In this document: one piece after another, positions 16,566-24,115 of the stretch
How positions within the stretch are numbered: the first letter of the stretch is position 1
How the letters are laid out: each line of letters starts with the position of its first letter
The notes under the pieces: model-generated
What the model saw: the letters and a program-made list of their open reading frames with translations, nothing else
The model's database searches: none
Told to the model about the DNA's origin: nothing
Position numbers and translations under genes: made by a program
NCBI RefSeq assembly: GCF_964204645.1
Contig: NC_134034.1
Location: forward strand, 13,645,962-13,709,961
Source: Tubulanus polymorphus
Taxonomy: Eukaryota > Nemertea > Palaeonemertea > Tubulaniformes > Tubulanidae
Direction: 5' to 3'
Length of the DNA: 64,000 nucleotides

Positions 16566-16760
16566 GTTATGTATTGTAATATATGTATTGTAATATGTAT
16601 TGTATTATGTATTGTACCATGTATTGTATTATGTATTGTACCATATACTGTAATATGTATTGTACCATGTGTTGTATTATGTATTGTACCATGTATTGTA
16701 TCATGTATTGTAATATGTATTGTACCATTTATTGTAATATGTATTGTATCATGTATTTGT
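16566..16760. repeat. Tandem repeat, ATGTATTGTA unit
   Basis: About 13-14 units of ATGTATTGTA(C/A/T)(C/T)-type, period about 14 bases with variants. Confidence 0.8.
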
Positions 16761-17945
16761 AATTACTCTTCTCACTCGGTTCTCTCTAATTACTGTCAGT
16801 CTGCCGATAAATACTGATTAGTAGCGAAAGCTTGTGCGTCAAATAAACCTATATTGTATACTTATACTTGTCTCGTTATGATTATTCCTAACCCGGTTTA
16901 TACCCCAGGCTCCTCTACGGAATAAGGGAACATCGTGTTTTAATTCCCGATTCGGACCCTCTGTCGCAGCCTTTGCAGTGGACACAGGACAACTCGGGCT
17001 GGATTCGAACCCTTGAAAGCAGCAGGCCCGTTTCTCTTGGACATTGTGGAAAACTTCTAAGACTAAGATTCGATTTCAGCCTTCTTTGACGAAGAGAACT
17101 TCAGTGGGACAATACTCAGAATTCGAACTTGTGGAATGAACCTGATTTGGAATTTTCTGCGAAAGCTTCATTTTTCTAGAGGAAAATAAATCAATTTCAT
17201 ATCGGTAACTATTACAACGAGTAATAGGAAAAATTGTGCCGAAATTGAGAGTATTGAAACAAACACAGCTAACCTACACGGCTGTCTGGATTCAGTTGTT
17301 TCGGGATGAAAAATTTGCAGAAAATTCCGAAACATTTTCATTCCATCACGAGGAGACTGAAATTGACTGGTGACCCACGTACGCTGGGCGAACTTTGGTT
17401 ATCGGAGTTAGTCGCGACTATAGTCGAACTAAGTGAAACCGAATGTCAGTTAGTTGGAACCATAGTCTGGAAATAGTTCGGAAATAAAGCGCATTCGGTT
17501 ATTAGTTCCGACCACTAGTCGACTAGATACGAGAACCGAATTTGGCCCTTACTGAGGAACTAGGATTCTGACCCGGCGGACAGGACCATCAGCCAGTAAC
17601 AAGATAGTCCCGACCAGTCTGACCAGTGTGTGGTCGGCGGATGAGAGAGGATTAATGTACAAGGCAAGCAACATCGGAGCCTCGCTTGGAAGGTCTCCAC
17701 TGAAGGCGCTGCGATGCACTAATCTCGGTAAGTGGACTTTTAGTAAGTGGACTTTATTAGAATAACATGACACTAAACGCAGACCGGTATCGATTCTATA
17801 AAGCGGCGCGCGTACCGCAACAACAGACGTCCGAGTAGAGTCTACTCAACGCAGTGCTGCCGCGATCAGTTTTATATGCGCATCTATAAATAACTCGGCT
17901 AGCCGCGTGACGTCAATATCTAAATATAACTTCCTGGAACGATTC

Positions 17946-17953: not shown

Positions 17954-18152
17954 CGCTGAAATATCGCTGCGTCAGTCGACAGTCTAGAACTAGCGGCCGG
18001 GTTAGATTATCAATAATAATAAATATCCGCATATTTTCGGAGATTTTTTCGAACGAACACATAAAACTAGGCATTGCAGACACAGTCGGCTGATTAGAAA
18101 CGGATTTCTTTCGACAATATTCTTATTTTTTGGAAACGCGTTTAATTTGAAT

Positions 18153-21100
18153 ATGGCTCATTGCGCCGAAAGCGGAGTTTTGGAGGTAAGCGTGAAGATG
18201 GCGTCTAGCGGAAAAACGAGACATTTCGATATGTCTCGCGACGACCGAGTGGCAGACGTTAGGGAGAGAATCGCCACCGATGAGAAGGTCGACGCGCGAC
18301 GAGTCGTGTTGAAATACATGGGTAAAATACTGGAACGTTTCGCCGTACTCGGCAAATTGGGCGTCTGCAAGGACACGATCCTGAAAGCCGAGGTAAGTTC
18401 TTATTTGATTTAAAAATTGAACTTGATTCAAAGAGTATTACGATTTTCGAGCTTTCGGATTGTTTTAAGATAAGGATTTATCCTGATATTTGTTTGGTAG
18501 ATTTCGTTTGATTTTTTTTATGATTTGGTGCCCCTTAAAAACCCACCACACCAGTTGCCGGTAGCGAAACAGGTGATTTGATTCTGAAATCTGAAATCGA
18601 AGTACCGGCGTACATTGAATAATTCACTCAAAGAAAATCTAGTCCAAATTCTTGATTAATTTGACATTTAGAAAACGAATATTTATACGTTACCTTTCAT
18701 GATTTTGCTGGATCCTTGAAATTTGCGAGAATGAAAACGTTGCATTAGAGACGTAATCATGTTTAGTTATATTGGATAGAATGATTAATCAGTAATTGAA
18801 ATATAACTTATTCGTTGAAGTTATTGAGAATGACGTCATTCAACTAATCTTGATTATATATTCTGAATCCCGAAAGCTTGAAAATTCAGATGTTACTCGT
18901 AAATCAGTTATATCAACAATGACCTATAAGTCTAAATGTACATTCAAAAATAATTTATGACGACAAACAAGAGGAAACGATTATTCGAATTGAAAGTGAA
19001 ATGGCCTCCAAGGCTGTATATTGCCGCCTCTTGAAGACGGACAGTTAAAGGCGTAGACCCCGCGCTGTCTCATCTGGTATAACAATACAAAGTACAAGAA
19101 CAAAAGAGATAAAATCAATTTATCGTCTCGAATTCGTTATGAAAAATAATTCGTCAAAATTCACCTCATATTCGTTTCTTTCCTTTTTAATAATGTTTTT
19201 TGTTTTGTTTCTAAATGTAAGATATCGACCGTAAAGGATTGGACAGTTACTATTGAGATAGCTGATGAACCACGTCGTGCTGTGACGCTTCACGTGCAAA
19301 ATATAACGACTTTCAACGAAATATCGCGTATGCTAAAATATAAGGAGGGACTCGAACCCGGACGAGACGGATGGCTGTATCTGAAGGTAATTTCGGATTG
19401 ACCGCAGTAGAGTTGTGTAAACCCAATTTCACTGTTGGATGGGACTTATTTGATCCAGTCCCAAAGTTGTGCGAATTCGATTTGACTCTGGACCCAGTTC
19501 CTCAGTTGTATGGTTGGATCGAGTATCACAGTTGAACTGATGAAATCTGACTCCAAACCCAATTCCACAGTTGCACCTGCCTGGATTCAATGCAACAGAA
19601 TTTTTCACAGTCTTTCTTTAATCTAACTTTTAGGACGACTCCGGTAAAAAAGACTTCCGCGATGGAGAAACGGCCGTTAAAGATGTCGGACTAGCAGACG
19701 GCGCAGTACTAATCTTAAAGAAACGACAAATTCCGGTTTCACCAGGTAAGTCATTTTTGCACCAGGTGGACTTAAATTGATTGAGTAGATTCACCATTAA
19801 TTTAGATTCCCGACCGGATGAAAAATTATTCCGGGCGCTCTATGAATAACTTATGACAAACTATTTATTTGGGCAGTTGGAATTCTTTTTTTCTTTGTAG
19901 AGAGAAGTTCAGAAGATAATGAAACCTTGCAGGTACAAGAGGCTGGCGCCGACGCGGACAAAGTTGATGTACGTCGATAACAAATGGATCCAGTCGGGTA
20001 TGATTCTTCGTTGTTTGATTTTAAGTCTTCTTTTTTCTCAAATTTTAGGAGGTCATGTCCAGTTTTCAGACGGACGGTCGGTCTATTGAAGTCGTATTTT
20101 CGTTCGATACAACCGGAAGCATGTATAGCTGTTTAGAACAGGTCAGTGCAGGTTCTCATCAACCACTCCTTTCGATGCCGCGTTGGGTAAGCGGCGACTT
20201 CAAAGTCCCAGATGAAGACTTTCTCCTTTCACGAGTGTGCTAGAATTGGAGGTTCATAGCGAACCCCTCACCACGAGGCGGATCTTTTAGCGATCGAAAA
20301 GTCTTCTGAATTCAACATTTAATTCCCTCATTTATGTATTTCAGGTAAGAACTAAACTCCGCGAGACAGTGACCCGTCTGTTAAGAGACATACCAACGAT
20401 CAGAATCGGGATCATCGGTCACGGTGATTACTGCGACGATACAACCGCCGGCGGAAATAAGTACGTCGTCAAAATGAAAGATCTTACGACGGATGTCGAC
20501 GATCTTGTGTCGTTTGTCGAGTCGGTTCCTTCGACGTGCGGCGGAGACTCACCGGAGGTACGTACGGTAGTGCCCCCTAGTGTTTTTTTTCTGTAAATGA
20601 TATCCCGTGAATTATCTAGAAATTGAATCTTTCTTTTAAAAGCATCATTCATTCGTTTAATTTTTTTTCTAAGACTTATTCGCACACTTTGGCATCATCG
20701 GCCGAGTTGTTGTCGGTTGGGCCAGATCTTAGATTGAAATTGTTTTGTAATTTCTATGGTGTGGTCCACTTATCATTCAATGCATTTGCCTATGATATAT
20801 CTATCATGAGTTTTAACAATTTTGCAAAGTTCGGTACCGTTATATATGGAAAAGGGGAATTATTAGTAATGATAATATGTATGAAAATCGCTGTTATGAT
20901 GTTAGCTTTAACTGATGTATTATATATTTCAGTGTTACGAATGGGTGCTGCATAAAGCACAACAACTCGACTGGGGCGAGCATTCAGCGAAAGCGTTAGT
21001 GATAATCGGTGATGCCTGTCCGCATAATCCTGGCTATACCGATTTATACATCAACTGGCTGGACGAATTAGATATTCTTAAAGGGATGGACATCAAGGTA

Positions 21101-22522
21101 TAAAGCAGTAAGCGTTAGTTTTCATTCACGGGCAAGGCGCAAAGTCCTGAAAAGATTTAGATCAACCCCTATAGCCAATAAAGAAGTCTTAACATATTGT
21201 CGTTCAAATCGAGAGATTACGATCAAGACCATCTTGAGAGATCGAAGAACAACATTTAAGCTCATTTTGGGGCTATTAGTAAAAAAACTGAGACTTGAAA
21301 TGATTTACCTTGATGATAAGATCGATATTTTATCATGAGATTAGTCTCTTCAGGAGTCAGGCGTGTGCTTTGGTATAAAACGGTTTATTTTGATATTGTC
21401 AGGTCTATGGAGTGCAGGCACTGAGTAATTCCCACGCCGCCTGTTTCTATAACGAGATGTCTTCACGGACAGGGGGCGCTGCTCTGGCGTTGAAAGATTT
21501 CCAACTGATCACTGACATGTTTCTGGCAGGTAAGCGACGCACCTTGAGGCATATCAACTTTTTTAATTAATAAAAAAAAAACGGTCGCACAGACGTGAAC
21601 AAAAATGATCCACCATGGATTATTGGTATATATGAATGATGAAATAAAAGTTCGGGTTTTTAATTATAGTCTGTTACAACGAATCGAGTCCGGAACAACT
21701 GCAGCAATACTGCGAGGAAATCGAACAAGAAGGACGTATGAACGAAGCGACGAAAGAAATGTTCGATAAACTGGAAGAACAACAACAGGAACAAAAAAAG
21801 AAAGAAAAAGAAGGAGAGAAAACGAGCGAAAAACTGAATGAAAATAAGGTCGGTTGAATAGAGGGGTATTTGAGTGCATTAGGTTCAGTTCATCATGAAT
21901 CTGATCCTCAATGGGGGATTTTGGCACCAGTCGTTAAGATCCGCCAGGTTCGCTAGTAGTTACTCGCAGTTCTATTAACATTTCCAATTAAAAATCGAAC
22001 CAAATTTTCTCAGGTATTTAAAAATGTTCATCGATTCGAAAACTGAGTAAACAAGTCAATCTTATACCTGTATCTGTTACGTATTTGACGAAGCTTGATA
22101 ACATTTGGATTTGGAAGCAAAAAATCCAATCAACTTTAACTCGCTTACTTCCATTAGATTACGTAACGTTGACTAGTTGCACCATGGACTTTTTGAAACC
22201 ATGCCTCACTGAAATCACATCTGGTCTATCTTTGTATCGTTTTTGTGTTTTCTAGGAGTTTAAAGCATCTTGGTGGAGAGACGACCGAACCAAGTCGCCT
22301 AAATATTCTTACGACTCCGTGAAAGACAAATGGCATCCTTACGGTGATTGGAACAGATATCCCGATATCGAAAAAGACGACAGTGCACCGGAACCGGTGA
22401 CGTCATCGCCGCCACCATCGCCGACGTCGTCGTCGAATCGATCGTCTGCCGGTGAAAAGAAAACCGTTTGGAAACGAATAAAACGTTCATTTTCAATACG
22501 CAAACGCAAAACAAACAAATAA
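18153..22522 (+). CDS. Ubiquitin-like / vWA domain protein, ten exons
   Basis: Exons 18153-18392, 19222-19386, 19634-19745, 19901-19968, 20049-20141, 20345-20557, 20933-21097, 21403-21529, 21670-21848 and 22256-22522 join in phase to 542 residues. Residues about 8-80 and about 82-165 each look like a ubiquitin-fold module: a beta-hairpin, then a helix, then LKYMGKILE in the first and DGWLYLK...VGLADGAVLILKK in the second. Residues about 208-385 form a von Willebrand A domain. It starts VVFSFDTTGSM, with the MIDAS-type D-x-T-x-S at 215-219, and continues through IGIIGHGDYCDD and ALVIIGDACPH. A Glu/Lys-rich coiled region and a very basic tail (WKRIKRSFSIRKRK) follow. The vWA resembles the type found beside alpha-kinases and in bacteria; no kinase is present. 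Function unknown. It could be a ubiquitin-pathway adaptor, but that is inference. Confidence 0.85.
19425..19590. repeat. Dispersed CAGTTCCACAGTT repeat in intron 2 of the UBL-vWA gene
   Basis: Four degenerate units with CCCAATTTCACTGTTG, CCAGTCCCAAAGTTGTG and CCAATTCCACAGTTG, the same family as at 12130-12400. Confidence 0.65.
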
Positions 22523-22524
22523 AC

Positions 22525-23095
22525 AACAACGCGACGAAATTGTGTGATTGAAAACAACGCGACGAGATTGTGTGATTGAAAACAACGCGACGAGATTGTG
22601 TGATTGAAAACAACGCGACGAGATTGTGTGATTGAAAACAACGCGACGAGATTGTGTGATTGAAAACAACGCGACGAGATTGTGTGATTGAAAACAACGC
22701 GACGAGATTGTGTGATTGAAAACAACGCGACGAGATTGTGTGATTGAAAACAACGCGACGAGATTGTGTGATTGAAAACAACGCGACGAGATTGTGTGAT
22801 TGAAAACAACGCGACGAGATTGTGTGATTGAAAACAACGCGACGAGATTGTGTGATTGAAAACAACGCGACGAGATTGTGTGATTGAAAACAACGCGACG
22901 AGATTGTGTGATTGAAAACAACGCGACGAGATTGTGTGATTGAAAACAACGCGACGAGATTGTGTGATTGAAAACAACGCGACGAGATTGTGTGATTGAA
23001 AACAACGCGACGAGATTGTGTGATTGAAAACAACGCGACGAGATTGTGTGATTGAAAACAACGCGACGAGATTGTGTGATTGAAAACAATGCAGC
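22525..23095. repeat. 28-bp tandem repeat in the 3' region of the UBL-vWA gene
   Basis: About twenty near-identical copies of AACGCGACGAGATTGTGTGA plus TTGAAAAC, period 28, beginning directly after the stop codon. Edge units are diverged. Because 28 is not a multiple of 3 and the unit has no stop on the minus strand, all three minus frames stay open and read as the same 28-residue repeat. I regard those frames as non-coding. AATAAA follows near 23262. Confidence 0.95.
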
Positions 23096-23639
23096 GAAAT
23101 GTGTGAATGAAAACCATGTCAGAATGATTCATAACCACGCGACTATCATAGTTAGACACGGATAACTAAACAACTGTTTAAGTAACTTTGTAAGGAGTGT
23201 TGAATTCAGAAGGCGCGTGTAACTTGGTTTAAACAGTGTCTAATTGATGAACGTGTATAAAAATAAACACCCTTTGTAGTTACGGCCCTTTAATAGTTAT
23301 TGAACTTGTTTCTGTTGTTGATGTTACTAAGTGCAGTTTGACGCCTAGGAATGACAGAGGATGCGGCTATAACGTGTACTGTTTGTGTGATATTTCGGTA
23401 AACCTGATCGGTGTGCACCTCTTCTACCGAATTTGATCTTTTTTAACGCCATTAAAACCGCTACAATGATTTTTTAGAACATTTAAACATGTTGTTAACT
23501 ACTATGCGTTATTCAAGGCGTTCTGTGTTTGTCAATGTGCACTACGTCATCAATATTTGGTGTTTATAAATGACAATTTATTTGTATTCAAACGTATTTT
23601 TGACTCAATACTGGATAAATAAACGATACACGTTCAAAA

Positions 23640-24115
23640 CAAATAAGTTAGCAGAATCTATTGATAAAAAATTTACCGAAGCATAGGAGGCGATTATCAA
23701 TACCAAAACCTTGCGGGCCCAAGGAAAGTAGCCCCAACCTTAACTGGCTCGTAACCCTAACCCTAGCTCATTCGTAACCCTAACCCTAGCTGACTCGTAA
23801 CCCTAACCCTAGCTCCAGCTCGCTAGCTAACAGGTTTCGAACCTGTGACCTCCAATATGCCAGCCGTGCACGCTACCCACTAGGCCACTGAGCTGTAGTG
23901 ATTGACACAGTTTGTAAATACGTCCGGTCAGTGTGGTGACCAGTCAGGTGCGATCGGCGCTATTCACCAAAGGCACCCTCTCATATGTTGTTTAAAGAAA
24001 TATGGACATCCTAGATTCCACACTTACTCGGTCGGTTCAATATCCGTGAAGTTTTACTTGAATATTTTCGGCATAAACTTATATTTCCCTGGTTGTAAAC
24101 TTAGGTGATTTATTT
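23640..24115 (-). mobile_element. Composite tRNA-related repeat (SINE-like), copy A
   Basis: Read on the minus strand, a body segment (GTGCCTTTGGTGAATAG, CTGACTGGTCACCAC, CCGGACGTATTTACAAA) is followed by a tRNA-like head: A box TGGCCTAGTGGGTAGCG, then B box GGTTCGAAACC about 44 bases on. Next come three GAGCTAGGGTTAGGGTTAC units and a tail ending GATTCTGCTAACTTATTT. Copy B at 33848-34303 is collinear over its whole length; copy C at 57150-57460 is partial. Confidence 0.75.

Follow-up and report, generated by a model that had tools for sequence, protein, structure and literature searches.

A predicted nemertean fusion of one, and probably two, ubiquitin-like domains with a vWA domain of a bacterial and phage family

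Binding between ubiquitin-like domains (UBLs) and vWA domains is already known from separate proteins; here, one predicted chain holds both. A gene of the nemertean Tubulanus polymorphus raises the question of whether such a fusion exists in an animal and what it would do. The gene lies on the plus strand at positions 18153–22522 of a 64,000-nucleotide stretch (the window; assembly GCF_964204645.1, contig NC_134034.1, positions 13,645,962 to 13,709,961), and an earlier reading of its letters without database searches (the sequence-only reading) had proposed two N-terminal ubiquitin-like modules, a vWA domain, a Glu/Lys-rich coil and a basic tail. Our analysis yields the order UBL1, UBL2 (probable), acidic linker, vWA, charged coil and basic tail. 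The fusion of the vWA domain with at least UBL1 is, in our judgment, very likely real, and the UBL2 region probably has a ubiquitin fold as well.

The ten exons that had been proposed splice in phase to 1,629 nt, which encode 542 residues and a stop codon, and all nine introns have GT...AG borders (Table 1). The start codon at 18153 has an in-frame stop upstream at 18003 and no earlier in-frame ATG, and the GC content is 0.476 in the exons and 0.354 in the introns. Composition and charge also bear out the Glu/Lys-rich coil (residues ~401–454) and the basic end (residues 520–542, charge of approximately +10), and the linker (residues 173–205) has a net charge of approximately −8. Contamination is an unlikely source of the window because it sits 13.6 Mb into a contig of a 268-Mb assembly of 77 contigs. 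A different partition of the exons would be two transcripts, with exons 1–3 or 1–4 encoding a short UBL-UBL protein and the vWA protein beginning at M198 in exon 5. The modelled vWA paralogs on three other contigs of the genome (C1, C2, and C3, described below) do open with an ATG a short way ahead of the vWA domain, and read-through of the exon 3 donor would add 11 residues and a stop (frame 19634–19780), which makes an intron-retained UBL-UBL form possible. However, every exon is in phase with GT-AG borders, and a search of 18153–21176 found neither AATAAA nor ATTAAA, that is, none before 21177. We therefore regard two transcripts as quite improbable.

UBL1 matched the ubiquitin family PF00240 above its cut-off of 25.4 bits, with 31.1 bits (E = 2e-7) for exon 1 alone, 28.8 bits in the full protein and 30.9 bits in a genome-wide search. 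Of 70 positions aligned with ubiquitin, 17 are identical. A fold prediction for exon 1 by itself began with strand-strand-helix and went on with a helix in place of a ubiquitin strand, at a confidence (pLDDT 53.5) too low to weigh either way. The first of the two proposed modules stands, and the second, which has no Pfam match, is probable.

Evidence for UBL2 is as follows: (i) UBL2 aligned globally to ubiquitin is collinear over nearly its full length, with a score matched by none of 5,000 shuffles; (ii) the same score was reached by 1 of 6,000 segments of open reading frames (ORFs) from the fetched bacterial and viral loci, a pool that contains many vWA homologs or purely mechanical ORFs and is not a clean protein sample; and (iii) a profile comparison with hhalign gave p = 0.0019 for UBL2, compared with 1.1e-4 for UBL1 and 0.27 for a control piece of the vWA domain. 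Compared with ubiquitin, UBL2 has a five-residue insert (L134–S138) after the position of F45, which spans the join of exons 2 and 3. In comparisons with the sequences of solved structures, the low E-values against long poly-ubiquitin chains arise because the scores of the repeats add up; as a single stretch, the best match of the full protein had E = 0.0038 (5vix_A) and that of UBL2 alone had E = 0.034 (7l97_B, an engineered ubiquitin variant).

Several results weigh against a second UBL, for which the similarity is weak. No Pfam family matched UBL2 at E ≤ 10, so the PF00240 cut-off was not reached; the hhalign probability was just 14%; and a profile of six UBL sequences gave 5.0 bits, a score equalled by 70 shuffles (20,000 made, 17,234 scored), and 2.7 bits after UBL1 was added. 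These are the results expected if the protein had a single UBL and residues 81–170 were a spacer or another fold, a reading that the collinear alignment to ubiquitin, with its shuffle and ORF-segment controls and the hhalign p-value, makes improbable to us. A tandem duplication of the 2 UBLs was rejected because they are not alike: the UBL1–UBL2 score of 12.0 is below the shuffle mean of 13.2.

UBL1 ends in ..LKAE and UBL2 in ..LKKRQIPVSP, and the C-terminal Gly-Gly of conjugatable modifiers of the FAT10/ISG15 type is absent from both; therefore, neither should be conjugated. At the positions of the ubiquitin hydrophobic patch L8/I44/V70, UBL1 has S18 or A17/K54/E80 and UBL2 has E96/L132/K164. 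A close parallel for such a pair is FAT10 (UBD), which likewise has 2 dissimilar UBLs that are described as lacking the L8/I44/V70 patch in the excerpts of PMC6102260 (this and the other papers below are cited from excerpts); its N-domain has the triplet E/L/K at these positions, the same as UBL2, although an agreement over three positions may be chance. FAT10 differs in being conjugated as a modifier and in having no vWA domain; the predicted protein has the vWA domain and no Gly-Gly.

The UBLs could serve an adaptor that docks on receptors of the degradation machinery (the proteasome or p97) while the vWA domain, with or without a metal, holds a client, and there would be no contact between UBLs and vWA. 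The missing Gly-Gly fits such a role, and FAT10 and NUB1L get to the proteasome via their UBLs (PMC6102260, PMC10185811). However, the client is only hypothetical, and the hydrophobic patch of ubiquitin is replaced in both UBLs, which makes classical docking less likely. On balance we consider this explanation rather unlikely, though a serious competitor.

The vWA domain spans residues 206–400 and carries the MIDAS-type residues (metal ion-dependent adhesion site) D215, T217, S219, T290, and D324, the first three of which make up the DxTxS motif named in the sequence-only reading. None of the 5 residues varies in the 7 rows of one alignment (A1) or in the 60 bacterial and viral rows of another (A2). 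Their spacing agrees with the consensus DXSXS-X70-T-X30-(S/T)DG (PMC6624252), with the last motif reading GDA instead of (S/T)DG. The nearest named Pfam family was VWA_4 (PF25106), for which the domain, at 25.0 bits, fell slightly short of the cut-off of 27. The domain is, however, 46% identical to a phage protein that is accepted by both PF00092 and VWA_4, with the blastp match spanning residues 208–429. NCBIfam gave no match, PHROGs gave none for the window vWA domain or for crAss001 gp52, and the best match of the vWA domain among the sequences of solved structures was integrin beta-6 (E = 0.012). VWA_4 domains go with alpha-kinases; Pfam found no alpha-kinase domain in the predicted protein, which sets it apart from vWA–alpha-kinase proteins of the VwkA type.

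Membership of this vWA domain in a bacterial and phage family is strongly supported by sequence comparison. A profile scan of bacterial genomes, which depends on set peptide patterns, yielded 205 relatives among 258 pattern matches. In the best 80 of the 205, chosen by similarity and the basis of the figures given here, vWA identity is 50–57%, and by their titles they are cyanobacteria and myxobacteria, except for one labelled Comamonas that groups inside the myxobacteria. The same scan of viral contigs yielded 72 relatives among 162 pattern matches (best identity 51%). With tblastn, matches turned up in 38 phage records, of which the best among the 30 listed had 46.9% identity over 98%, and in 11 plasmid records, where identity did not exceed 31.2%. 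Individual identities reach 56.5% for Microcoleus and 46.3% for phage Rctr197k. A phage as the nearest source, which tblastn had suggested, was dropped because bacteria were closer in the profile scan (best 80 of 205). The sequence-only reading had called the domain a type seen near alpha-kinases and in bacteria; its bacterial character is well supported, and its connection with alpha-kinases is weak.

The bacterial homologs are standalone proteins of ~355 residues that share the vWA domain and the stretch following it with the predicted protein and carry a further C-terminal domain of ~130 residues. Beyond the matched stretch, all 79 bacterial ORFs and 42 of the 70 viral ORFs continue for 110 residues or more (L078, L088, and L146 excluded). 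This C-terminal domain is conserved in the bacterial and many phage proteins (for example, L108:3989-5050 and L001:1470-2546) and has no Pfam name; in two phage proteins it matches phrog_26613, and crAss001 gp52 is a vWA protein without it. The animal protein differs from these relatives in having UBLs and introns and no recognisable copy of the C-terminal domain. A cyanobacterial homolog scored 29.5 bits against VWA_4, above the cut-off, and its model (pLDDT 92.1) has alternating strands and helices and is vWA-like by eye. No UBL fusion was found among the relatives: a home-made UBL profile gave nothing convincing in 152 bacterial and viral ORFs, some of them truncated (best 3.9 bits), Pfam at E ≤ 0.01 gave none among 60 family members, and the UBL part had no match in phages. 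PADLOC assigned none of the three homologs tried (two bacterial and one phage) to a defence system. In the cyanobacterial loci L108, L117, and L143, the ORF that follows the vWA gene on its downstream side looks, by eye, like one for an NAD-dependent DNA ligase. The MoxR-vWA ternary conflict systems place a vWA gene beside a gene for a MoxR AAA+ protein (PMC8195603).

In the T. polymorphus genome, this vWA family occurs at three more loci (10 candidates scored). They lie on contigs C1, C2, and C3, and the window vWA domain is 33.6%, 43.2%, and 41.3% identical to them, respectively. The C2 and C3 paralogs start with a basic stretch. Neither the UBL-pair search nor the PF00240 search found a UBL near the three paralogs, although one as divergent as UBL2 could escape these searches. 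A second copy of the UBL pair was absent among 10 genome candidates, the others being polyubiquitin with E of 0.08 or worse. Other loci in these searches are worth recording. Downstream of the C3 (L030 8616-9188) and C2 (L008) vWA genes lie frames of ~190 residues that look alike by eye, and the L030 frame has a weak GIY-YIG match (E = 0.0038). A distinct VWA_4 match of 105.9 bits, with one TAG inside, is located at C7:14591417-14600583 on the minus strand (L005, L006). In addition, an open frame of 1,247 residues (L212; C11, ~1524913) has one ubiquitin-like stretch of 15.0 bits and others at or below 0, and is perhaps a poly-UBL protein.

Was the window vWA domain then acquired from bacteria or phages separately from these paralogs and afterwards joined to the UBLs? 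Over residues 205–428 it is 51–57% identical to 39 bacterial rows, compared with 33–44% to the paralogs, and the bacterial rows are ahead in both halves (residues 205–349, 53–60% compared with 49–51% for C2 and C3; residues 350–428, 43–53% compared with 30–32%). Its introns (after residues 226, 297, and 352 and within codon 395) share no exact position, by eye, with the 2 introns seen in the paralogs. Such differences could stem from a separate transfer, or from an old split after which the rates differed, and a slowly evolving old gene would look alike. Furthermore, the bacterial rows come from the best 80 of 205 and were picked for similarity, two paralogs reach 49–52% in the first half, and one intron is just three codons from that of a paralog.

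The trees do not decide between these readings. The first tree had 110 rows (the window vWA domain, three paralogs, two phages, and 65 of 72 viral and 39 of 80 bacterial loci; L078, L088, L096, and L146, which have identical domains, and most odd-numbered bacterial loci were omitted); the window gene had no clear position in it, and the paralogs grouped with viral rows (93/90). A second tree had 64 rows after 34 viral rows (long-branched or distant groups) and 12 near-duplicate bacterial rows, 46 in all, were dropped; in this tree only, the four genes of T. polymorphus group together weakly (84/92), with a long-branch warning. When the window gene was placed with the cyanobacteria or with the bacteria as a whole, a tree test neither rejected nor favoured the placement (p = 0.43 and p = 0.46, respectively). 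We consider a separate acquisition unlikely.

What such a chain would do may be approached through the systems in which UBLs and vWA domains already meet. Rpn10/PSMD4 has C-terminal ubiquitin-interacting motifs (UIMs) and a VWA_2-type vWA domain. It resembles the predicted protein as an intracellular vWA protein in a ubiquitin context and differs from it in its UIMs, of which Pfam found none in the predicted protein, and in the VWA_2 type of its vWA domain. The C-domain of FAT10 binds the Rpn10 vWA domain (PMC6102260, PMC10185811). In Rea1/Mdn1 (midasin), the MIDAS holds Rsa4 and Ytm1 by their UBLs, via a metal ion whose coordination is completed by a UBL glutamate (PMC6624252), a contact also described in PMC8122580; the binding is weak in solution and behaves as a catch bond under load (PMC8837202). 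Rea1 with Rsa4/Ytm1 is thus like the predicted protein in combining a MIDAS-type vWA domain with UBLs; in the Rea1 system, however, these are on separate proteins and include a large AAA+ ATPase, whereas the predicted protein is one chain with no AAA+ match in Pfam.

From these comparisons it is reasonable to infer an adaptor of the ubiquitin pathway, and we tentatively put forward, as a possibility short of an even chance, that its tethered UBLs and MIDAS work together through a metal-dependent contact. The protein would be intracellular, as suggested by its UBLs and by an N-terminus in which no hydrophobic stretch was seen by eye. UBL1 and UBL2 would be permanent docking modules because neither ends in Gly-Gly. 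An acidic residue supplied by a ligand would complete the coordination of a divalent metal at the MIDAS, as in the Rea1 contact. The likeliest ligand would be a UBL, either the protein's own UBL2 (a closed state), that of a second copy (an oligomer) or that of a partner; D136 and D137 in the UBL2 insert are candidate ligand residues, which is a guess. While the MIDAS takes a client, the freed internal UBL would be exposed to partners of the ubiquitin system. Alternatively, UBL and MIDAS might be used as two arms with the acidic linker between them. The basic C-terminus could act as a nuclear signal or a membrane contact.

Several considerations count against this metal-switch reading: (i) a MIDAS can bind any acidic ligand, and therefore a UBL as the ligand is only inferred; (ii) the last MIDAS motif, GDA, departs from the consensus; (iii) the likeness to Rsa4/Ytm1 is drawn at the level of domains; (iv) the similarity of UBL2 to ubiquitin is weak; and (v) the fusion is predicted, and the switch proposed, from the genomic sequence of a single species. 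The complete scenario, in which an animal took the vWA domain from multicellular bacteria or their phages and fused it with 2 UBLs into a cytosolic adaptor whose metal site binds a UBL of the same or a neighbouring chain and which a ubiquitin-fold ligand opens or closes, appears improbable as a whole.

Among the matches listed in searches of open-licence full-text papers there was no UBL-vWA fusion, and the UBL-UBL-vWA architecture may already exist unnamed among eukaryotic sequences. One chain with both parts would offer a simple system for metal-dependent recognition of UBLs in a setting other than ribosome assembly or the proteasome. Through its vWA domain, a gene family of an animal is linked with one of bacteria and phages, which has no specific name in the libraries searched and which brings a C-terminal domain of unknown function together with one confident homolog model (pLDDT 92.1).

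Table 1. Exons of the UBL-vWA gene and the adjoining repeat, in positions of the window.
Feature	Position	Strand	Content
Exon 1	18153..18392	+	residues 1-80; UBL1 = residues 13-79; PF00240 above cut-off
Exon 2	19222..19386	+	residues 81-135; first part of UBL2 (probable)
Exon 3	19634..19745	+	residues 136-172; second part of UBL2 (probable)
Exon 4	19901..19968	+	residues 173-195, first codon split with exon 3; acidic linker
Exon 5	20049..20141	+	residues 196-226; start of vWA, D215-T-T217-G-S219
Exon 6	20345..20557	+	residues 227-297; vWA with MIDAS-type T290
Exon 7	20933..21097	+	residues 298-352; vWA with MIDAS-type D324
Exon 8	21403..21529	+	residues 353-394; vWA
Exon 9	21670..21848	+	residues 395-454; stretch shared with homologs to ~429, then Glu/Lys-rich coil
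Exon 10	22256..22522	+	residues 455-542 and stop; no Pfam match; basic C-terminus
28-bp tandem repeat	22525..23114	.	21.1 copies, 98% match; begins three bases past the stop

The 28-bp tandem repeat probably lies in the 3′ untranslated region of the gene. Among 10 ORFs of the window searched with Pfam, three passed, namely a basic helix-loop-helix protein, a rhodopsin-type G-protein-coupled receptor and an adenylate/guanylate cyclase; taken together with the introns, these indicate animal DNA. At 23735–23900, TAACCC-rich repeats are followed by a minus-strand sequence that is tRNA-like by eye and perhaps a short interspersed element; ARAGORN called no tRNA in this region. Upstream of the gene, at 16570–16770, a long simple repeat of the TATGTATTGTA type was seen by eye.

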